64,000 bases of DNA from positions 62,001-126,000 of the forward strand of contig NZ_QHJF01000002.1 in assembly GCF_003259225.1 (NCBI RefSeq), read 5' to 3'. Below the pieces are notes generated by a model that saw only the letters and a list, made by a program, of their open reading frames with translations, was not told the origin of the DNA and made no database searches. Origin of the DNA: Marinomonas arctica (GTDB lineage Bacteria; Pseudomonadota; Gammaproteobacteria; Pseudomonadales; Marinomonadaceae). A program made the translations under genes and the position numbers. Shown in pieces: positions 51,216 through 62,602 of the stretch (within the stretch, counting starts at the first letter, position 1; each line of letters starts with the position of its first letter).

Positions 51216-52856
51216 TTAGGCATCAGCCAAAATAGACACCTGATTTCTACCATTATGCTTAGCTTGATACAAAGCCTGATCTGCTGCTTCAATCAGCGCA
51301 TCCGCGCCAACAAACTCACGAGAACTGCACACCAAACCAGCTGAAAAAGTACAGCTAAATTGACTGTTAGCACCGCTAAATTGAATGCTCTTAAACGAAT
51401 CCAAAAGAGATCCAAGTAATCTTTTCGCATTACTCACTGAACAATCGGGTAAGACCACCAAAAACTCTTCACCACCATAGCGCCCCGCCCGATCACTGCG
51501 ACGTAGCCGTTTTTGCAATAATGCCGCTATCGTACTAATAACAATATCGCCGACAGCATGACCATGGGAGTCATTCACGCTTTTGAAGTGATCAAGATCG
51601 ACCATAGCCACGCAAAAATGCTGCCCGTTACGCTTCATTTTTTCAAACTCAGTATAAACTGTGTCTTTGATTGAGCCGTGTCTCACCAACCCAGTCAAAC
51701 TGTCACACTCAATCATAGATTTAATGTCGCGATTTCGAGCCAACCTCAACTTCACAGCACTCACCAAATGTTGATTACTGATTGGCTTGGTTAAAAAGTC
51801 ATCAGCACCATAAGATAAAGCCTGCAACTGCCTGTGAATGTCATGCTCAGCCGATAAAAAAGTGATATGCAAACTACTGAGTTGGTCGTATTGACGGATC
51901 AAACCTGATACATCAGAACCTGAGTAGTCTGGCATATGCATATCTAACAACAACAAATCTGGCTTAAAAGACAGTAAATCTTGGATAATATATTTGGCCG
52001 ACTCAATAACCTGAACCTCTATTCCTGCAGCACCTAATATCCAGCTATAATGCTCTGCCAATAACGAATCGTCGTCTAATATACTCACCTTTTTATCCAC
52101 AAAGTCCATCTCATCAAACAGAAGAATAATTCTTTGCAAAATACGAGTGGAGTCTAGCTGACCAACAAAAAACGCTTGGGCCTGATGACGCACCGCATTA
52201 ATACGAGTCTCAAAATCATCATCCTTAGAGCAAAGCATTAATTTCGTCTTGTTCTGTACAATACAATCGAGTAAATCATCCTGAGAAAATAAGGAATCGC
52301 CTGCCAATTGCGTCTCGCAAAACAATAAGCCTGGCATGCTATCTTTAATTGCGAGAGAGCATTCAGCGTAGGAAGAAAAACTTCTAACTGTAAAGTCAAA
52401 TGCCGTCAGTTGAAGTTCAAGTTCTGAACGAAAATTTGAGTCGGGCAACACAAACCAAACACTTTGAATCGTGTTTGGAGCATTCAGGGCTTTACCCAAA
52501 GATTGAAGCGTTACTGGCTGATCTTTATTAGAATTAGATTCTTCAATAAAGTTATTAATCGCTTCACATAAATTGAGTCGGGCAACATCTGAGTCTGTCT
52601 TATCGCTAGTAAGCAAGGCATTCACTTCAATTTGACGCGCTAAGCGGCCAAGAAAGTGCAACCCAAAACTACCACAAGAACCGGCTAATTGATGGGCTTT
52701 GCTAATAACATCTGGCAGTTGTGAAAAGTCGTTCTCACGTATAGACACAAGGACTTGCGAAAAAAAATCCGTCCTTTGACTTAGAACATGCTTAAAATTA
52801 GCCTGCAATGACTGCATCGCTAATTGAATGTCTTCGGGTGTTTTTTTAGTAGGCAA
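51216..52856 (-). CDS. HPt-pseudoreceiver-receiver-GGDEF diguanylate cyclase
   Basis: The 546-residue cytoplasmic protein has four domains. The HPt domain (about 10-110) carries AHQLAGS with phosphorylatable His55. A degenerate receiver (about 130-250) has Glu181 where the Asp should be and lacks the Lys. A full receiver (about 256-375) has DDD, Asp305 in LLLLDMHMPD and Lys357. The GGDEF domain (about 383-546) has active-site GGEEF 461-465 and an intact RxxD inhibitory site (452-455). It is likely the output of the upstream kinases, making c-di-GMP when phosphorylated. It is last in the four-gene cluster, 28 nt after the multi-PAS kinase. Confidence 0.88.
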   Translation of the reverse strand: MPTKKTPEDIQLAMQSLQANFKHVLSQRTDFFSQVLVSIRENDFSQLPDVISKAHQLAGSCGSFGLHFLGRLARQIEVNALLTSDKTDSDVARLNLCEAINNFIEESNSNKDQPVTLQSLGKALNAPNTIQSVWFVLPDSNFRSELELQLTAFDFTVRSFSSYAECSLAIKDSMPGLLFCETQLAGDSLFSQDDLLDCIVQNKTKLMLCSKDDDFETRINAVRHQAQAFFVGQLDSTRILQRIILLFDEMDFVDKKVSILDDDSLLAEHYSWILGAAGIEVQVIESAKYIIQDLLSFKPDLLLLDMHMPDYSGSDVSGLIRQYDQLSSLHITFLSAEHDIHRQLQALSYGADDFLTKPISNQHLVSAVKLRLARNRDIKSMIECDSLTGLVRHGSIKDTVYTEFEKMKRNGQHFCVAMVDLDHFKSVNDSHGHAVGDIVISTIAALLQKRLRRSDRAGRYGGEEFLVVLPDCSVSNAKRLLGSLLDSFKSIQFSGANSQFSCTFSAGLVCSSREFVGADALIEAADQALYQAKHNGRNQVSILADA

Positions 52857-52884: not shown

Positions 52885-55641
52885 TTAAGATGTTACTGGT
52901 ATTGGTAAATGAAGATAAAATCTTGCTCCAGACGTTTTATTTGATGTGTAGCCAATCGTCCCTCCCATTGCTTCCACTAACTCTTTACACAGCGCAAGCC
53001 CTAATCCAGTCCCGCCCTTCATTTTTGAAGTGCTTGTGTCGGCCTGAGAAAAACGCTGAAAAATACGGGAACGAAATTCTTCTGGAACACCTTCCCCTTC
53101 ATCTTCTACCGAAAGCTCGATATAGTTGGCTATTTTTTGTGCAGACAATGCTACCATGCCCTCATTAGGCGAGTACTTAACAGCATTGGATAATAAATTT
53201 GCTAATATTTGCATCAAACGATGTTCGTCAATAAGAATGGAGATCTCGTCTATACATTCTGCAATATTTAAAGCGAAGCGAACGCTTTTTCCGCCCAAAT
53301 ACAATTGATGATCATGTATGGATCTTTGAAGTACCGACCTAATATTCGTCTCTCTCATTTCAAACGACATTTTGCCAGCCACAAGCTTCTCAATATCCAG
53401 TAGATCACTTATTAGATGTATTAGCTGATTACAATTATTACTTGCGATATTCAGTAATTTAGCAGATTTTTCAGATAAAGATGCAAGTTCACCCGACTGC
53501 AGCAGATTCAGTGCACCTGAAATAGACGTCAATGGTGTTCTTAACTCATGACTGACTGTTGCAATAAATGCTTCTTTCATTTTCTGCAACCTCATTCTTT
53601 CCGTGACATCTTGCACCGACCCGACCATAATCAACTCAGGATTTTTCTCTTCTGGTACAAACTGAGACAATTCATGTACCCAACGAATTTCGCCATCTGA
53701 GCGAATAATACGATGCACCATATTATAGATGCCAGACTGTCTAGCTTGCTCCTGTCCCTGCTCTACTTTTTTCACGTCATCAGGGTGAATCATACTTTTA
53801 AATAAAGAAAGGCTGGGCTGAATATCCTCAGAATTGAAACCAAGTATTTGATAGATAATGGGAGACCACCACAGCGAACCATGCTTAAGCGATATTTTCC
53901 AATACCCTATTTGCGCCTGCTCACTAGCAAGATCTAAACTTTGCTGAGCCACTTTTAATTGCTGATTAAGCTTTTCAAGGGTTAAATAATATTCTTTTGT
54001 TTGAGTGATATCTTGAATGTACCCATGCCATAGCGTGCTACCATCGGGCATTTTTTCAGGTGTCGCATTACCTGACAGCCACATAATAGATTGATCATCT
54101 CGGTGTACTCGATACTCATCCTGCCAAACCGTTTGATGCTCACGTGACACCTCAATACTTTGGATAATCGCATCTAGATCATCTGCATGTATTCGAGAAA
54201 ATGCCGCTGAAGCATCCTCAATAACATCATCTGGAGTAACACCATAGATAGATTTAATAGCGACACTAGCATAAGGAAACGCAGAGTGTCCGTTAGGCCA
54301 TAACTGAAATTGATAAACCATACCGGGCAGTTGTTGAGTGAGCTTGATTAAACGCTCTTGCAATTTCTTTTCATTGCTTACGTCTAATATAAAGCCGTTA
54401 AGATAAAGCACTTGCCCAACATCGTTATATTCTGCCGCTCCTCTTTCTTCAACCCAACGAATAGAGCCATCGGCATGTATAATCCGATAATGAAGTAACC
54501 AGCTTGATTTGTCATTAAGGGCAACGTCTATACTGTGCTCCAGACGCGTTCTATCCTCAGGATGGATAACGCTACTATACGTACGAACAGCGTTACCAAT
54601 AAAATCACTCGACGGGTAGCCAGACAAAGGATCAATATGACCGCTCATAAACAGCATGGTCCAACTCTCGTCCGCCTTACATCGATAGGTTATTCCCGGA
54701 ATATTCGCGACTAAGGTTCTAAACTGATCTCTGCTTTCGAGTAGAGACATCTCGGCATTCATCTGCTCTGAAATATCAGCGTGGGTTCCGTACATCATCA
54801 ATGGCTTACCATCTTCCGTCCATGAAACCACTTGCCCTCTATCATGGACCCAGACGTAATGGCCATTTTTATGTTTCATGCGACATTTATAGTCGTAAAA
54901 AGGACTCATACCGTTGAAATGTTCTTCGAGCAACCGACCAGATTCAGCCAAATCGTCTTGATGAGCGAAAGACAACCAAGTTTCAATAGAAATAGGTTCA
55001 AGTTCATCCAGCTGATAGCCAATAATATTGGCCCAACGCTCATTGAAAATAGTCTCTCCTGTCTGAATATTCCACTGCCAGGTGCCTATTCTAGTACCGT
55101 CAAGCACAGAGCGATACATCTGTTCACTAGTGAGCAATTTATCATGGGCATATTCTTGCAACCGGTCTTCTATTTCCTGCTCAACGGCTTGTGCAAATTC
55201 AAACGCAATTTCACGTTCTTCAACAGAAAAAATACGGGGTTGACAACCAAGGAAGCACAGTGTGCCTACTGCTTGCCCATCGTATTTGAGGGGAACTCCA
55301 GCGTAAAAGCGAATAGATGGCTCACCCACGACTAGGGGATTATCAGCAAAGCGCTCATCTTTCAATGTGTCTGATATCTCAAAAATATCGCCACTTAAAA
55401 TAGTATGACCACAAAATGAGATATCACGACCAGTCTGGCAAACCGCTAACCCTTGCCGAGATTTAAACCATTGTCTATCCTCGTCAACCAGTGAAATCAG
55501 TACAATATCACTCTTTAAGCTAAACTGCGCTAAACGCGTTAATCGATCAAAACGCGGTTCTGACGGTGTATCAAGCATTTGAATTAGATGAAGTGCTTCG
55601 AGGCGTTCAACTTCATTGTCAGGCTTACTTGGTATTTGCAT
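52885..55641 (-). CDS. GAF/multi-PAS sensor histidine kinase
   Basis: The 918-residue soluble kinase has a GAF domain (about 22-160), four PAS/PAC modules of the PAS_3 type (about 175-295, 305-425, 430-550 and 570-690), HisKA with His698 in ATVSHELRTPLTS, and a HATPase_c domain (N-box near 815-819; DEGEGVP; GGTGLGLAL). No membrane segment is present, so it senses intracellular or diffusible cues. No receiver is fused; the partner is presumably the 129-residue receiver 25 nt upstream or the GGDEF protein downstream. Confidence 0.92.
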   Translation of the reverse strand: MQIPSKPDNEVERLEALHLIQMLDTPSEPRFDRLTRLAQFSLKSDIVLISLVDEDRQWFKSRQGLAVCQTGRDISFCGHTILSGDIFEISDTLKDERFADNPLVVGEPSIRFYAGVPLKYDGQAVGTLCFLGCQPRIFSVEEREIAFEFAQAVEQEIEDRLQEYAHDKLLTSEQMYRSVLDGTRIGTWQWNIQTGETIFNERWANIIGYQLDELEPISIETWLSFAHQDDLAESGRLLEEHFNGMSPFYDYKCRMKHKNGHYVWVHDRGQVVSWTEDGKPLMMYGTHADISEQMNAEMSLLESRDQFRTLVANIPGITYRCKADESWTMLFMSGHIDPLSGYPSSDFIGNAVRTYSSVIHPEDRTRLEHSIDVALNDKSSWLLHYRIIHADGSIRWVEERGAAEYNDVGQVLYLNGFILDVSNEKKLQERLIKLTQQLPGMVYQFQLWPNGHSAFPYASVAIKSIYGVTPDDVIEDASAAFSRIHADDLDAIIQSIEVSREHQTVWQDEYRVHRDDQSIMWLSGNATPEKMPDGSTLWHGYIQDITQTKEYYLTLEKLNQQLKVAQQSLDLASEQAQIGYWKISLKHGSLWWSPIIYQILGFNSEDIQPSLSLFKSMIHPDDVKKVEQGQEQARQSGIYNMVHRIIRSDGEIRWVHELSQFVPEEKNPELIMVGSVQDVTERMRLQKMKEAFIATVSHELRTPLTSISGALNLLQSGELASLSEKSAKLLNIASNNCNQLIHLISDLLDIEKLVAGKMSFEMRETNIRSVLQRSIHDHQLYLGGKSVRFALNIAECIDEISILIDEHRLMQILANLLSNAVKYSPNEGMVALSAQKIANYIELSVEDEGEGVPEEFRSRIFQRFSQADTSTSKMKGGTGLGLALCKELVEAMGGTIGYTSNKTSGARFYLHLPIPVTS

Positions 55642-55666: not shown

Positions 55667-56056
55667 TTAAACACCTTGATGGCACTGGTCATAAATAGAC
55701 AATAATTCATTACCTAAGTTAGCGGCATCAAAAGGCTTTTCAATCACAGCAACCGCACCAGCTTCTAGATATTGTTTCTTTTCGGATTGTTGGACACGTG
55801 CCGTCATGAAAACAACTGGAATAGATTGGCAACTTGGTATCTTTCGGATTTCTGCTAACGTTTGCAATCCATCCATACTAGGCATCATGGCATCAAGCAA
55901 AATCAAGTCAGGTTGTAACCCCTCCACTGCAGCACTTGCATCCTTACCATTGTCAAACGAGAAGAGAGTAAACCCCAAAAGATCCACCAGCGACATTTCT
56001 ACAATCACTCGAATAGACTCATCGTCCTCTACATGTAAAATTGTATTTAGTTCCAT
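55667..56056 (-). CDS. Single-domain response regulator
   Basis: The 129-residue protein is only a receiver domain: acidic pair HVEDDES, phospho-acceptor Asp in LILLDAMMPSMDG, Thr in VVFMTAR and Lys in VIEKPFD. There is no output domain, so it works as a shuttle or by protein contact, like CheY or Spo0F. The start at 56056 is favoured by the GGGA just upstream; ATG at 56068 would add four residues. It sits between the hybrid kinase and the GAF/PAS kinase. Confidence 0.88.
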   Translation of the reverse strand: MELNTILHVEDDESIRVIVEMSLVDLLGFTLFSFDNGKDASAAVEGLQPDLILLDAMMPSMDGLQTLAEIRKIPSCQSIPVVFMTARVQQSEKKQYLEAGAVAVIEKPFDAANLGNELLSIYDQCHQGV

Positions 56057-56104
56057 TAGTCCCACCATCTCTGTTTTATTCTATATCAATCCATTTTATA
56101 CATT

Positions 56105-59086
56105 TTAGCTTGGTTTAGACGTTTGAATGCGCGTGTTAATTCCATTCAGTAATTCTTGGCTAGACAATCGCGATTTAAGCATCACCGCCTCTACCTTGCT
56201 CGCTTCTTGTACAGCTATATCCTCACCCGATAATATGACGACTTTAGTGGCTGGCATAAACGCTCTTATTTCAGGCAGTAATTCCCAACCCACCCCATCT
56301 GGCAGACTAACATCTAATAAAATAACGTCAAACGGCTCTTTTTTTAACTTTAACCGTGCTTCCTCTAAGGTACGAGCCACCTCAAAGTCAAACAATTCAC
56401 CCGCCATAGCTCGAATCACTTCATGCAAATCTGCATCATCTTCTACATGCAGTACACGGGAATGCCGTTCACTTTTCAACGACAGCTGATGATGCACAAT
56501 ACTAAGAAGACGTTGCTGATCAATAGGTTTTGCTAACCAATCAATATTGGAAACATCCCCACTAATCTCTAAACGTCCTTGCTCTACTTTGGCTGAAACT
56601 ACCACTATCGGCAAATTTAACGTCTCTGAATCTTGTCGCAACTTTCTAATAACATCTAACCCTCCTATGTCTGGTAGCATTAAATCAACACTAACCAAAT
56701 CATAGCTTTGCACCTGCAGACGATTTAAAGCATCTTGGCCTGTGAGAGCAATATCGACAACATAGCCCGCTTCTTTCAGCATAATACTCAGTAGATTAGC
56801 GACGTCTGCATCGTCTTCTATTACCAAGATACGTTGTGTTTTCGACGTAATTTCAGTGTTAATATGGTTTACAAATGAAACACTGTTAATAGGCTGCATC
56901 ACAGGTAATTCAAAAAAGAAACGCGCGCCTTTGCCTTCAACAGACTCAAAATCTACACTCCCTCCCATTCGCTCAATCAACTCACGAGTAATAGCAAGAC
57001 CGAGTCCTGTTCCCTCTTTTGCTCTCGTATCAGAAGAATCGGCTTGTGCAAAGCGTTGAAAAACTCGAGCTCGGAAAGCTTCAGGGATACCAGGTCCATG
57101 ATCAACCACACTGACAACAACTTTATCATTGAAGGTTTCTACCTCAACAGATACATGACCATTCTCTGGTGAAAATTTAATCGCATTTGATAGCAGATTA
57201 ACCAGCACTTGCATCAAACGCTGACTGTCCACTTTGATCAGTGTGTAACTGGCACTGGTTGTCAGTGTCGCAGTCACTCTGCGCTCAGTGCTAAACTCTT
57301 GTATGGACTCTAATGCTTGCTCAAGTAAGGGCGTTAACTCTTGAACCTGCATATCAAAATGTAGTTTACCAGCTGTAATTTTCTCGAAATCTAATAAGTC
57401 ATTAATCAATAAGGCAAGCCGCTTACTATTGCGATGAGCTGTTATTAGTAGCTTATTGGCTTTTTCTGGCAAGACACCAAAGCTTCCTCCCACCATTAAA
57501 CCCAATGCTCCGGATATAGAAGTGAGAGGAGTTCGTAACTCATGACTTACAGTGGAAATAAACTCACTTTTCATCTGGTCAATACGTTTTCGCTCTGTAA
57601 TATCCTCAGCAATACCAAGATAACCAATGATATTATGCGATTCATCACGCATCGACGTGACAACGAGTGAAACAGGAATATACTCGCCATTTTTATGTAC
57701 GTAAGTCCATTCCCGTGTCTCAACACCCTGAGCTTCTGCTTTTTCAACAAATACTCTAAAACCTTCTATTGGTTTGCGTAACTCTGCCGTTAATTCGGCC
57801 GATCTTGCCTTTACCTCGTGATCAAGATGAAAAATGGCAGGCGTTTTTTTATTAATCGTATCCAACTTAGTATAGCCAAGCATCTTTTCAGCACCTTTAT
57901 TAAAGGCCGTTATTAGGCCATTCGCATCGGTCGCAATAATAGAAAACTCCGAAGCCGCCTCCAGTACGCTGGATAAAAAACGCTCAGTATCTCGAATAGT
58001 AGCATTGGTCGCTTTTCTCTCGCTTTCGAGGCGATTCATTGCTCGTACTAACGCTCTCACTTCGGGTCCTCCTTGCTCTTGGAGGTCGACGTCAAACGTA
58101 TTTTTTTCAACCATTTTATCGATTCGATGAGTCATTATTTCGATCGGGCGAGTTAAACTTCGTGCCATCCACACGCCCGCTAAACTCACCAACACCATGG
58201 CACACAGTGTAATAAATAAAAAATGACGGTAAGACGCTTTAGCTGGTGCTATAGCATCTTCATAAGGAATGGCACGTAACGCAATCCACCCTAGAGTATC
58301 TAACTTCTCGGTCGCTACTAAATACCTCTTTTTATTGTATTCAATTAACGTGCCTGCCGATGCGAGGGACAAAGCGGCATCGACCATAGCATCAGTGCCC
58401 TCAGGAGGAAGTCGTTGAGGCGAGGTAAACCTTTTCTGCATAGATACAAAAAGACGGTGTCGAGGATCAACAACTACACTGTAAACACTGGAGTCGTCTT
58501 TTAGTGCAACCTTTGAATCAATAAGAGGAGTGTTCGATAAATCAAGCAAGCCGGCAATAAAACCTTTTATTTCGCCATCAGAAGAAAGAATAGGCTGAAG
58601 AAATGAAAGCAAGGGAAGACCCGTTACTCTGCCTAAAATAGGTTCAGAAATAATGGCTTTTTTGGTGAAAAAACTTCGCTGAAAATGCGGTCTGTCTAAG
58701 TAACTGGTTCCTAATCTATTGGGCACATAAATACTTTCCGCTATGGCAACGGCATTCGCATCAAAAGCCAATAAGCCATCGGGGAAAAGATCACCTGCCA
58801 CAGAAGGCCTTAACATTAGAGTTTGTAGCGATTGAGTTTTTAATAGCTCATTATTGTCATCTAAAAATCTTGTCGAAAATGCCTCTAATCCCAGCACCCG
58901 CTGCTTTAATGACAGCTCCAGTTCTGATGCTAAACGTTCTATTTGTACAGACTCTCGTTCAACCACGAGTTGAGTATAATCATCAATGATCAATCGATAA
59001 AAAGTAATTAACATTCCACACACTAATATACCAATAGTGAGAAGAATTAGCAGTATAACTCGAACATTAAGCGACAACCGGCTCAT
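56105..59086 (-). CDS. Membrane hybrid sensor kinase with two receivers
   Basis: The 993-residue protein has TM1 (about 10-30), a periplasmic Cache-type sensor (about 35-280; FPDGLLAFD, LDRPHFQ and GRVTGLP are dCache features), TM2 (about 288-307), HAMP (308-360), PAS (about 368-495), HisKA with His515 in STVSHELRTPLTS, HATPase_c (about 615-728), receiver 1 (about 750-865; Asp801, Lys853) and receiver 2 (about 876-988; Asp925). No HPt is fused, so phosphate could pass to the HPt of the GGDEF protein in the same cluster. It diverges from the RsbQ-like operon. Confidence 0.92.
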   Translation of the reverse strand: MSRLSLNVRVILLILLTIGILVCGMLITFYRLIIDDYTQLVVERESVQIERLASELELSLKQRVLGLEAFSTRFLDDNNELLKTQSLQTLMLRPSVAGDLFPDGLLAFDANAVAIAESIYVPNRLGTSYLDRPHFQRSFFTKKAIISEPILGRVTGLPLLSFLQPILSSDGEIKGFIAGLLDLSNTPLIDSKVALKDDSSVYSVVVDPRHRLFVSMQKRFTSPQRLPPEGTDAMVDAALSLASAGTLIEYNKKRYLVATEKLDTLGWIALRAIPYEDAIAPAKASYRHFLFITLCAMVLVSLAGVWMARSLTRPIEIMTHRIDKMVEKNTFDVDLQEQGGPEVRALVRAMNRLESERKATNATIRDTERFLSSVLEAASEFSIIATDANGLITAFNKGAEKMLGYTKLDTINKKTPAIFHLDHEVKARSAELTAELRKPIEGFRVFVEKAEAQGVETREWTYVHKNGEYIPVSLVVTSMRDESHNIIGYLGIAEDITERKRIDQMKSEFISTVSHELRTPLTSISGALGLMVGGSFGVLPEKANKLLITAHRNSKRLALLINDLLDFEKITAGKLHFDMQVQELTPLLEQALESIQEFSTERRVTATLTTSASYTLIKVDSQRLMQVLVNLLSNAIKFSPENGHVSVEVETFNDKVVVSVVDHGPGIPEAFRARVFQRFAQADSSDTRAKEGTGLGLAITRELIERMGGSVDFESVEGKGARFFFELPVMQPINSVSFVNHINTEITSKTQRILVIEDDADVANLLSIMLKEAGYVVDIALTGQDALNRLQVQSYDLVSVDLMLPDIGGLDVIRKLRQDSETLNLPIVVVSAKVEQGRLEISGDVSNIDWLAKPIDQQRLLSIVHHQLSLKSERHSRVLHVEDDADLHEVIRAMAGELFDFEVARTLEEARLKLKKEPFDVILLDVSLPDGVGWELLPEIRAFMPATKVVILSGEDIAVQEASKVEAVMLKSRLSSQELLNGINTRIQTSKPS

Positions 59087-59332: not shown

Positions 59333-60151
59333 ATGAATGTCTTGCATCGGAACAATGTGCATGTATCAACCCACCATGTTAACAAACCCACTCTACTTTA
59401 TGCCCACGGCTTTGGATGCAGTCAAGCCATGTGGAATAATGTGATACCAGCCTTTAAAGAGAAAGCCAAGCAAATTTCTTTTGATTTTGTTGGAAGTGGT
59501 CAATCAGACATCGCAGACTACAGTTTCGAACGTTACAGAAGGTTAGAAGGATACGCTCAAGATGTTATCGAAATTTGCGACGCTCTAAAACTTGATTCCG
59601 ATGTCATTTTTATTGGCCACTCAGTCAGTTGCAGCATTGGGGTGCTCGTCGCGAACGAGAGACCAAATTTATTCAAAAAAATGATTTTTTTAGGCCCTTC
59701 TCCTTGCTTCTTGAACATGCCACCAGATTACCAAGGAGGCTTTGAGCGAGCAGACCTTGAAGGGTTATTAGAATTGATGGATCAAAACTACCTTGGCTGG
59801 GCAAGCTACCTTGGGCCAGTGGTTGCTGGAACCGATGCAGATCCAAAAATATCGGGGCAGCTATCAGACAGCTTTTGTTCAACCGACCCAATCATTACTC
59901 GACACTTTGCTAAAGCGACGTTTTTCTCAGACAACCGAGAGGATTTTACCAAGCTCGAAGTGCCTAGTCTCATTTTACAGCATAAAGAAGATGCCCTTGC
60001 GTCGGTAGAAGTAGGAAAGTTTTTACACCAACACATACCAAATAGCACGCTGCAGATACTGGATGTCGCCGGCCACGCGGCACACATGAGTCACCCTCAT
60101 CTGGTGATTGATGCGATTGAAGAATATCTTAGATCGGATTTACCCGCATGA
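59333..60151 (+). CDS. RsbQ-like alpha/beta hydrolase
   Basis: The 272-residue protein closely follows Bacillus subtilis RsbQ from memory: N-terminal RNNVHV, HGFGCSQAMW, DFVGSGQSD, the nucleophile elbow GHSVS, GPSPCFLN, GWASYL, FCSTDP and a conserved C-terminal His segment. The triad is Ser97, Asp220 and His248, each offset by one from RsbQ (96/219/247). RsbQ activates its PAS partner RsbP during energy stress and is a relative of plant KAI2/D14 receptors. A GGGAG SD precedes the ATG. It overlaps the downstream PAS kinase by 4 nt. There is no signal peptide. Confidence 0.9.
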   Translation: MNVLHRNNVHVSTHHVNKPTLLYAHGFGCSQAMWNNVIPAFKEKAKQISFDFVGSGQSDIADYSFERYRRLEGYAQDVIEICDALKLDSDVIFIGHSVSCSIGVLVANERPNLFKKMIFLGPSPCFLNMPPDYQGGFERADLEGLLELMDQNYLGWASYLGPVVAGTDADPKISGQLSDSFCSTDPIITRHFAKATFFSDNREDFTKLEVPSLILQHKEDALASVEVGKFLHQHIPNSTLQILDVAGHAAHMSHPHLVIDAIEEYLRSDLPA

Positions 60152-61647
60152 CGCGACACTCTGAACTTGACGCCCTGCCCTGCCCTTTGGTTATTACTGA
60201 CCAAGAGGGCGGTATCGTATTCATCAATGAATGCGCCATAACGTCTTTTGAACTGACAAGCCCACACGAAATAGAGCATATTGAGCAGCTTTTTCCCGTT
60301 CCGACTAGGATCTTTTTGCAAACCCACCTCTGGCCTATGTTAAGAGCCAATGGTGTCATCAAAGAAATGTATGTAAAAATCAATCTGGCAGATGGAATCA
60401 CTCTGCCGATTTTATTGAACGCCCAATCCGGACACTTTGATGAGCAGTCCTGTTATCAATGGGTTATGTTACCCGCTGCCGAACGTGCCAGCTTTGAGCA
60501 AGAATTACTTAAAGCCCGCCAACAGCTACAGGAATACGCACAAGAAGCCAATTCAAACCGTCACCTTCTGCAAACAGTACTTGATGGCGCTGAAGACATC
60601 GCAATATTAGCCGTATCAGAACACGGACTTGTTATATTCGCTAACAAGGGAGCAGAGACACTGTTTGAACAACAATTCAACAATCTAAAAGATCAACCTA
60701 TCCACACCTTACTCAACCCCGTGACACCATGCGCAGAATTAGATGCATGGTACAAAACCATGTTATCAACAGACATACCATTTTCTATGGTCAATAATGC
60801 CTGCGTATTTGATACCAAGATTCATCAAAAACACACAAAATCAATCGACATTCATATTCAAATTAGAAAGATAGAAACGGAGTTTAGTACTAACAACATT
60901 CAATTTATCGTTCTCATAAGTAATATTAGCCAAAGAAAGGAATACGAAACCCTACAAAATAATTTCATTACCACCATAACACATGAGCTGAAAACACCAT
61001 TAACCTCCATTCTTGGTGGATTAAATATATTAAAATCGGGAAAAGTTGGATATCTATCTAAAAAATCAAGATATCTAATCAACATAGCATTAGACAATGG
61101 CAATAGACTTAAAGATCTAATCGATAAAATTATTGACTTCTCTGAAATAGAATCTATCTCGCCCCCCATATCGATGCAAAGCGTTTTTTTACAATCGTTA
61201 TTAGAAAAGTCCATCGAAAAGCAAAAAGATTATGCAAACAAAAAACAAATAACACTATTGATGGAAGGTCCTACTGAAAATATACCTATTTACCTCGATC
61301 CTGTACGTTTTTTAAAGGTTATGGCAACTTTAATTTCTAATGCTATAAAATTTTCAACATCGAACACGACAGTTAAAGTGGTTTTTTTTGTGGAAAATAA
61401 ATACGTATTGTTAAGAGTTGAAGATCAAGGAATAGGCGTTAGTCCTGACTTTATTCCTTATTTATTTGCGCCCTTTCGCCAACAGGACAGCAAGACAGAT
61501 CGCCGCTATGAAGGTACAGGACTAAGCTTAGCGGTAAGTAAGGGCCTAATAGAAGCAATGGGAGGAGAAATATCCTTTCTACCGACGCAAAAAAGCGGTT
61601 CTATTTTTCAAATAAAGCTGGCCATTAGCTTCCGTAGTCAAAAATAA
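60148..61647 (+). CDS. RsbP-like PAS sensor histidine kinase
   Basis: The 499-residue soluble protein begins with a PAS domain (about 5-108) resembling that of RsbP. It shows DALPCPLVITDQEG, the helix RIFLQTHLWPMLR, and the strand GITLPILLNAQ; an analogous segment in RsbP is recalled as similar. A coiled coil (about 110-138), a second PAS (about 140-262), HisKA with His279 in THELKTPLTS, and HATPase_c (about 375-495; ATLISNAIKFS, EDQGIGV, GTGLSLAV) follow. RsbP instead ends in a PP2C phosphatase. The RsbQ-like gene overlaps its start, so the two are coupled. No receiver is fused. Confidence 0.88.
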   Translation: MTRHSELDALPCPLVITDQEGGIVFINECAITSFELTSPHEIEHIEQLFPVPTRIFLQTHLWPMLRANGVIKEMYVKINLADGITLPILLNAQSGHFDEQSCYQWVMLPAAERASFEQELLKARQQLQEYAQEANSNRHLLQTVLDGAEDIAILAVSEHGLVIFANKGAETLFEQQFNNLKDQPIHTLLNPVTPCAELDAWYKTMLSTDIPFSMVNNACVFDTKIHQKHTKSIDIHIQIRKIETEFSTNNIQFIVLISNISQRKEYETLQNNFITTITHELKTPLTSILGGLNILKSGKVGYLSKKSRYLINIALDNGNRLKDLIDKIIDFSEIESISPPISMQSVFLQSLLEKSIEKQKDYANKKQITLLMEGPTENIPIYLDPVRFLKVMATLISNAIKFSTSNTTVKVVFFVENKYVLLRVEDQGIGVSPDFIPYLFAPFRQQDSKTDRRYEGTGLSLAVSKGLIEAMGGEISFLPTQKSGSIFQIKLAISFRSQK

Positions 61648-61696: not shown

Positions 61697-62383
61697 TTAC
61701 AAGCGAATAATCTCAACAATAGGCGCCCCAGATGTCCAATCAACCAGTTGAATATCAGACACACTGAGCCTTTCTCGCCAGGCAAGAGAAATCACCCCCC
61801 AAGGAAAATGAAAGCTTTGCAAGCGATATTGATCACCTTGCCAAGGCAAACCATACGCCTCCCCATTCAGCAAACTCGGGGCACAGTTAATCTGACTCAA
61901 ATTATCAACTAAGCCGCTGCCATTGGCTTTTAATAGCGCTTCTTTGGATGTCCAAAGGCAAAAAAAACTCGCTTGCCTGTCTGCACATACATTCAGCTGA
62001 CTCTTCTCATCTGGATGACATACCATATCAATCATGCTCTCAAGATCATCCATATCTTTGTAACATTCTACGTCCACCCCGATAGCGCATTCATCGCTAG
62101 ACTGAGCCAACGCTACTGCCACCGACTCCGCGCTGTGACTCAAATTAAAGGCAATGCCCTCTTGTATAAAAGGCTTACCAGACGACGTTCGATAAAAGCA
62201 CCATTCTGATGTTTTTTTAAATGGAAAATAATGACTCAAAACGCGACGTTTAAAGGCATGGGCAAACACATAAGCATCACGTAAATGCGCAAAGCGAAAT
62301 GCAGCAGCACGCAACCTTTCTGCTTCGTCCAGACTATTTTCAATCGCAAACGCTTTTTCACTGTATGCCAAAGTCAAAATCAT
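61697..62383 (-). CDS. Sfp-type 4'-phosphopantetheinyl transferase
   Basis: The 228-residue protein shows the Sfp-group motifs GKPFI, FNLSHSAESVAVAL, IGVDVE with the Mg-binding Asp/Glu, and FFCLWTSKEALLKANGSGL. It converts apo carrier proteins to holo form using CoA. The start ATG at 62383 has a GGA 7 nt upstream; in-frame codons to 62410 lack a usable SD. No carrier protein, NRPS or PKS is near. It may serve secondary or fatty-acid metabolism encoded elsewhere. It converges on the PAS kinase. Confidence 0.88.
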   Translation of the reverse strand: MILTLAYSEKAFAIENSLDEAERLRAAAFRFAHLRDAYVFAHAFKRRVLSHYFPFKKTSEWCFYRTSSGKPFIQEGIAFNLSHSAESVAVALAQSSDECAIGVDVECYKDMDDLESMIDMVCHPDEKSQLNVCADRQASFFCLWTSKEALLKANGSGLVDNLSQINCAPSLLNGEAYGLPWQGDQYRLQSFHFPWGVISLAWRERLSVSDIQLVDWTSGAPIVEIIRL

Positions 62384-62602
62384 ATCATTTCCAAAACAGC
62401 TCATTCCCAATCATCGGTATCATGATATATTCCGATGAGATTAATTCCCAAACACTTTAAATGGGACATTGTTGTCCTCAGCGTCACTCAATCCCCCTGA
62501 GTACACAGGCTAAAAGTTGGCATTAATTTTTCATTGTACTAACCGACACAAGAATCGTACCAACGTGTCATCCAATTATAAAAATAACAGGACAAGTGAC
62601 TA

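Follow-up and report, generated by a model that had tools for sequence, protein, structure and literature searches.

What does an RsbQ-type hydrolase report to when the gene overlapping its own encodes a histidine kinase, as it does in the Gram-negative bacterium Marinomonas arctica, and which output might such a pair control? The window, meaning the whole 64,000-nucleotide stretch of DNA that was analysed, carries this pair as follows, the kinase being referred to here as PHK.

59333..60151, + strand: RsbQ-type alpha/beta hydrolase, 272 aa, ATG start, triad S97-D220-H248
60148..61647, + strand: PHK, a PAS1-helix-PAS2-HisKA-HATPase histidine kinase, 499 aa, ATG start, 4-nt overlap with the hydrolase gene
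60148..60474, + strand: RsbP-type PAS1, residues 1-109 of PHK
60475..60588, + strand: 38-residue helix linking PAS1 to PAS2, residues 110-147 of PHK, predicted in an AlphaFold2 monomer model
60589..60927, + strand: PAS2, residues about 148-260 of PHK, not RsbP-like
60955..61155, + strand: HisKA, residues 270-336 of PHK, phospho-acceptor His279
61297..61620, + strand: HATPase_c, residues 384-491 of PHK

Beside the pair lies a cassette of signalling genes on the opposite strand, the first of them divergent from the hydrolase gene.

56105..59086, - strand: hybrid kinase with a Cache-like region (below the Pfam cut-off), HAMP, PAS, HisKA, HATPase and two REC domains
55667..56068, - strand: single-domain receiver (REC), Asp59
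52885..55641, - strand: kinase with GAF, four PAS, HisKA and HATPase
51216..52856, - strand: Hpt-REC-GGDEF protein with Hpt His55, REC Asp305 and a GGEEF motif

The hydrolase is readily placed. Its triad residues lie in sequence within GHSVS, HKEDA and AGHAA, and the best PDB chain by phmmer is B. subtilis RsbQ (1wom, 305.8 bits), with Olei00960 ranked second at 263 bits and plant KAI2 following from 169 bits, so that the full triad and the RsbQ likeness put forward in the original prediction are both confirmed. Among the nearest records is the hydrolase of M. shanghaiensis, at 92% identity. The overlap of the hydrolase and PHK genes is an ATGA common to both, and the open reading frames agree with the Pfam matches of PHK (PAS at 6-93, weak; PAS_9 at 153-262; HisKA at 270-336; HATPase_c at 384-491) in giving the architecture that had been proposed for the overlapping gene, an RsbP-type PAS followed by a second PAS, HisKA and HATPase. 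PAS1, the helix, PAS2 and the kinase follow one another in this order when the full-length protein is modelled as a monomer with AlphaFold2 (mean pLDDT 76.3, pTM 0.36), and the phospho-acceptor histidine is kept in 12 of 15 aligned PHK rows, these being the 12 long enough to include it. A promoter scan returned two sites, both of them inside PHK, whereas shuffled sequence gave more. Directly 3' of the kinase, at 61697-62410 on the - strand, is a 4'-phosphopantetheinyl transferase-like gene, which among the loci compared recurs only in M. shanghaiensis.

The assignment of PAS1 to the RsbP type was approached by pairwise and profile comparison. RsbP residues 1-131, in a sequence checked at ten positions given in the 2011 description of the class (its nine class residues and P62), align with PAS1 at 62.6 bits and with the remaining six PAS domains of PHK and the cassette kinases at 4.0 bits at most (PAS2, 4.0 bits; the hybrid-kinase PAS, 1.5 bits; two of the GAF-kinase PAS domains below zero and the other two giving no row), in keeping with the predicted RsbP likeness. 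A profile of 18 RsbQ-neighbour PAS domains, PAS1 of the window among them, scores 163.7 for PAS1 and no higher than 8.0 for the other six, and together these scores rule out an ordinary PAS domain at this position. The RsbP residues C10, L13, L48, Q53, F55, C56, Y59, E72 and P86 correspond to C12, V15, F49, R54, F56, L57, H60, E73 and P87 of PAS1; as far as the 2011 figure legend defines the class positions, eight of the nine fit, F49 being a misfit if the consensus is Leu. PAS1 keeps Cys12, Phe56, His60, Glu73, Pro87 and Pro63 at positions of class-named residues, and among the 15 aligned PHK rows (split, truncated and kinase-less members included, Alishewanella left out) Cys12, His60, Pro63, Glu73 and Pro87 occur in all 15 and Phe56 in 14. 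The position of L48 holds Phe in eight rows and Leu in seven, and that of Q53 is basic in six of the 15 and otherwise variable; Glu73 is the only invariant position across 58 PAS domains. The end of PAS1 reads MLPAAERASFEQELL, and the DIT motif, whose absence belongs to membership of the class, is absent there.

Modelled alone, PAS1 adopts a PAS fold (pLDDT 91.5) whose nearest solved structures in a fold search of the PDB are the FixL haem, DOS and LOV domains; by sequence, phmmer finds chance-level matches only among PDB entries. The FixL and LOV likeness raised haem or LOV sensing as candidate functions of PAS1. RsbP C56 occupies the position of the FixL haem histidine, according to the available text of the 2011 paper (PMC3183031). 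In PAS1 that position is Leu57, and a FixL-type haem is unlikely, judged from sequence, because Leu or Met replaces the haem histidine in 15/15 PHK rows.

Is the pairing more than adjacency? A scan of 84,980 species genomes with six peptide patterns found 35 hydrolase loci, three of them in Marinomonas, and it favours near relatives because its seeds were exact peptides of the window hydrolase. An RsbP-type PAS (at least 49 bits) stands at the hydrolase gene end in all but one of the 35 (the exception is L065), and this neighbour is kept across Pseudomonadota, Bacillota, Bacteroidota, Acidobacteriota and Myxococcota, so that the predicted neighbourhood holds in relatives. Within the genus, RsbQ is present at E<=1e-30 in 27 of 48 genomes and an RsbP-type PAS at E<=1e-3 in 12 of 48, the latter at 13 places, each of them no more than 60 bp from an RsbQ match. 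Neighbours were examined for 31 of the 34 RsbQ rows of the genus (leaving out the second G016 copy and two G026 halves), and by profile 17 are paired and 14 are without a PAS partner.

These unpaired copies, together with L065 as another, are what would favour the view that the hydrolase is a housekeeping esterase whose adjacency to a PAS gene has no signalling meaning: the M. arctica genome itself has a second RsbQ (G000:C106:104595-105404, 49% identical), flanked by genes for a sodium/hydrogen exchanger and a homocysteine S-methyltransferase, and 13 further places in the genus likewise lack an RsbP-type PAS in the 1.4 kb downstream and keep the triad (L002, the M. arctica copy, with L019-L025, L028-L031, L033 and L034). 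On visual inspection of its sequence, the same exchanger gene precedes all 14 of the PAS-less genus copies examined. Against this view, the PAS neighbour persists in 34 of the 35 scanned loci across the five phyla named, and all but one of the 15 PAS-less copies fall into a single clade that adjoins GGDEF-paired Marinomonas RsbQ (SH-aLRT 97 for the 14 plus two paired rows) and has changed residues. Asn152 is found in 67/67 paired hydrolases vs 0/14 PAS-less ones, where it is Asp, and Pro186 in 66/67 vs 0/14, where it is Val. The esterase explanation is very improbable on this evidence, and the position of the PAS-less clade beside GGDEF-paired RsbQ on the tree suggests that it arose by loss of the partner. 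The residue differences suggest a PAS interface and do not prove one, because the PAS-less copies reflect one clade.

Of 67 distinct pairs, 41 have a GGDEF motif in the PAS protein, 17 a kinase H-box and nine neither of the two. The PHK-type hydrolases group in a single clade (15 rows with a histidine-kinase label plus three with a kinase-less PAS protein; SH-aLRT 97). The Marinomonas hydrolases nest inside those of Rheinheimera with moderate support (83, in a quick tree rooted for drawing only), a placement that would fit horizontal transfer. At L060 (6806-7618), L136 and L137, RsbQ is followed by a PAS1-PAS2 protein of 266-267 aa, counted from the PAS start, that ends at the expected kinase start; since the three make one clade they are read as an output-less form, perhaps an adaptor. 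The column of the catalytic His248 holds Pro or Asn in two of the 67 paired RsbQ rows (L067, L140), which may point to an error in the sequence or to an inactive hydrolase.

The original prediction had proposed a hydrolase paired with an RsbP-type PAS kinase in a Gram-negative bacterium, with no mention of the likely output genes beside it; the pairing stands, but it is not a new arrangement, the class having been in print since 2011. The accessible part of that report describes 45 pairs of RsbQ with an RsbP-type PAS and three output types, the Gram-negative members having histidine kinase output and five proteins having extra PAS domains (Nadezhdin, Brody, Price 2011, PMC3183031). As far as that text goes, the Marinomonas pair resembles the class in having the RsbQ homologue directly upstream, the RsbP-type PAS as the most N-terminal domain and a helical linker, as well as in its kinase output in a Gram-negative and its extra PAS domain; it is thus one more member of the 2011 class, and we regard its identity as an RsbQ-PAS module of that class as close to certain. 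It differs in that three of the published kinases carry fused C-terminal receivers, whereas here a separate linked receiver and an Hpt-REC-GGDEF protein are proposed; a separate partner regulator for the class kinases was not found in the portion of PMC3183031 available to us. The new part seems to be this candidate output. Compared with the sigma-B energy-stress branch of B. subtilis, the hydrolase likewise has a full triad and the PAS domain most of the class residues, but RsbP ends in a PPM phosphatase and PHK has a kinase and a second PAS instead.

In B. subtilis the PAS domain of RsbP binds RsbQ, the F55A substitution inhibits binding and the triad is needed for signalling, again as given in the accessible text (PMC3183031), and by analogy with this published work direct hydrolase-PAS contact and a need for an intact triad would be expected in Marinomonas. 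The cue of the module is there called mysterious and its regulatory target is given as known only in B. subtilis (PMC3183031), and no solution to the cue was found among titles and abstract starts of the open-licence literature. What the hydrolase conveys to PAS1 can be pictured in two ways, and the available discussion in PMC3183031 lets both stand, delivery of a product (model 1) and action as a receptor (model 2). A hydrophobic product made by the hydrolase, as put forward in the original prediction, may thus be the signal or may not. In the receptor model, ligand binding would alter the contact with PAS1 and hydrolysis would only reset the system, an arrangement compatible with the preferred explanation given below and a serious possibility that falls a little short of probable. 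It gains from a 2025 eLife paper whose AlphaFold2 model joins two RsbQ with two RsbP and puts RsbQ at the PAS domain and linker, much as RsbT sits on RsbU; with reference to the 2011 work, the same paper mentions that the module also occurs on kinases and cyclases (PMC12143880). It gains also from the plant receptors KAI2 and D14, to which the window hydrolase is homologous by sequence, Asn152 and Pro186 being among the residues common to RsbQ, Olei00960 and three KAI2-type chains, although KAI2 reaches only about half of RsbQ's bit score against the window hydrolase. In plants KAI2 and D14 signal to F-box proteins, and they are not known to signal to PAS proteins. The fold of PAS1 speaks on the other side, its likeness to the ligand-binding FixL haem, DOS and LOV domains leaving room for a delivered ligand.

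The question of output turns on the cassette. Aligned, the cassette and PHK together hold the phosphorylatable His, Asp, His and Asp residues and the GGDEF residues of a complete relay, and the Hpt histidine, REC aspartate and GGEEF motif are kept in 13/13 aligned Hpt-REC-GGDEF proteins, as is the receiver aspartate in 16/16. The nearest paralogues of PHK are the two cassette kinases (E 1.2e-43 and 5.8e-41, the next at 1.5e-28, among 33 other kinase-like places in its own genome), with an identity between the PHK core and these two of only 36%. Fifteen PHK-type loci were counted, window included, of which 13 are intact, one (L055) is split and one (L058) breaks off close to the end of its contig. 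At 14 of the 15 the cluster includes the receiver (55-98% identical), and at 12 the Hpt-REC-GGDEF gene (12/13 and 11/13 when L055 and L058 are set aside); in Arsukibacterium tuosuense (L052) the receiver gene begins 36 bp 3' of PHK on the same strand. Linkage fails for both genes in Alishewanella, and for Hpt-REC-GGDEF only in two Nitrincola. The PHK and receiver genes of Nitrincola tibetensis are together, but the best Hpt-REC-GGDEF relative, at 35%, belongs to a paralogous cluster elsewhere that has kinases and a receiver of its own. In Alishewanella tabrizica, assessed from 6 kb on each side of RsbQ (L081) and from contig numbers, the cassette is on a different contig from RsbQ and PHK.

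Several irregularities were met among these loci. Nitrincola alkalisediminis (L058) was considered as a minimal hydrolase-PHK-receiver case and set aside, its PHK frame stopping after 174 aa with another 111 bases of contig to follow (L058:6813-7337). The PHK gene of Rheinheimera pleomorphica is split (L055:6813-7583; also L118), and both breaks may reflect either genuine decay or an error in sequencing. In Rheinheimera sp. A13L the cassette includes a 1547-aa hybrid-kinase-like gene (L117:9488-14131), similar to a 1473-aa gene beside the kinase at L114.

The conserved neighbour genes suggest, without proving, that the pair helps to control cyclic di-GMP. A contrary explanation is that a known sensing pair has another output here, with a PHK regulator elsewhere, a transcription factor for example, and the cassette served by its own two kinases. 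Cassette parts do occur without PHK: the Hpt-REC-GGDEF gene is found in five of 48 genus genomes (E<=1e-60, with 30 candidates from each genome scored), four with PHK and the fifth G016, where the receiver, GAF kinase and Hpt-REC-GGDEF genes stand at one place beside RF3. In a family draw of 345 genomes around Rheinheimera sp. SA_1 (Hpt-REC-GGDEF cut-off E<=1e-110; four or up to seven candidates scored per genome, such that weak copies may be missed), the gene is present in all nine genomes with an RsbQ of at least 67% identity vs 16 of the 336 others, namely 2/73 with a weaker RsbQ and 14/263 without RsbQ at E<=1e-60; six of the 25 rows have one stop inside the match, and no probability is placed on these counts because the genomes are related. 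The co-occurrence in four of the five genus genomes and in all nine family genomes speaks for the c-di-GMP output, the copies in G016 and in the 14 RsbQ-less genomes for another one. Clusters at L156 (N. tibetensis) and L157 (G016) contain a hybrid kinase and their own receiver, 39-42% identical to that of the window, and RsbQ is absent from those stretches, which means that this type of cassette extends beyond the link to RsbQ. The separation in Alishewanella also favours another output. Against it stand the linkage of the receiver in 14/15 loci and the state of two species in which the cassette has been reduced.

Neither M. atlantica nor M. gallaica has a match to the hybrid kinase at E<=1e-60, and in both the GAF kinase survives only as its first 171-179 residues, while hydrolase, PHK, receiver and Hpt-REC-GGDEF are retained, leaving PHK as the sole remaining one of the three cassette kinases; the two reductions count as one event because the RsbQ tree places these species as sisters. 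The former GAF-PAS4 kinase appears there as a free-standing GAF protein of 173-201 aa (L048:4597-5202, L049:4682-5203). That the receiver stays with PHK where the other cassette kinases are gone or cut argues against another output. Just 3' of PHK in M. gallaica, however, are a REC + Trans_reg_C response regulator and a HAMP-HisKA-HATPase kinase, of which M. atlantica has remains or pieces. A DNA-binding regulator so placed favours another output, and this neighbour pair means that PHK is not the sole kinase of the neighbourhood, but the regulator has its own kinase beside it. All told, an output outside the cassette is unlikely, without being negligible.

The preferred explanation, then, is a relay from the RsbQ-PAS module through PHK to the Hpt-REC-GGDEF protein. 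The hydrolase would bind PAS1 and the helix behind it, and upon meeting or turning over a small molecule inside the cell would change the state of the PHK dimer. Under this control PHK, predicted to be cytosolic, would autophosphorylate on His279, and the phosphate might then pass to Asp59 of the receiver, His55 of the Hpt domain and Asp305 of the REC domain, a His-Asp-His-Asp relay that would set the diguanylate cyclase activity of the Hpt-REC-GGDEF protein. The other two cassette kinases may feed the same receivers with other signals. We infer the phosphate path and the c-di-GMP output from gene linkage only: that the linked single-domain receiver is the partner of PHK is probable, that c-di-GMP is the output of its pathway is the direction in which the evidence leans, and the whole reading, from module through PHK to diguanylate cyclase, is favoured by a similarly slight degree. 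A search of the open-licence literature for RsbQ with Marinomonas and for Hpt-REC-GGDEF strings found none.

The RsbQ-PAS-GGDEF fusions offer a parallel, sharing the hydrolase and PAS input but having the cyclase fused to the PAS domain, whereas here it would be reached by phosphorelay. There is about an even prospect that gammaproteobacteria possess two wirings from RsbQ-PAS to c-di-GMP, by GGDEF fusion or, in this clade, by a kinase joined to a multi-kinase phosphorelay, and if so the metabolite sensed by the hydrolase would be weighed against other signals. The PAS-less RsbQ copies provide a natural control for the PAS-binding surface, and perhaps for the ligand. The candidate c-di-GMP output provides a measurable readout in named Marinomonas strains, of which M. 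atlantica and M. gallaica naturally retain a single cassette kinase out of three.
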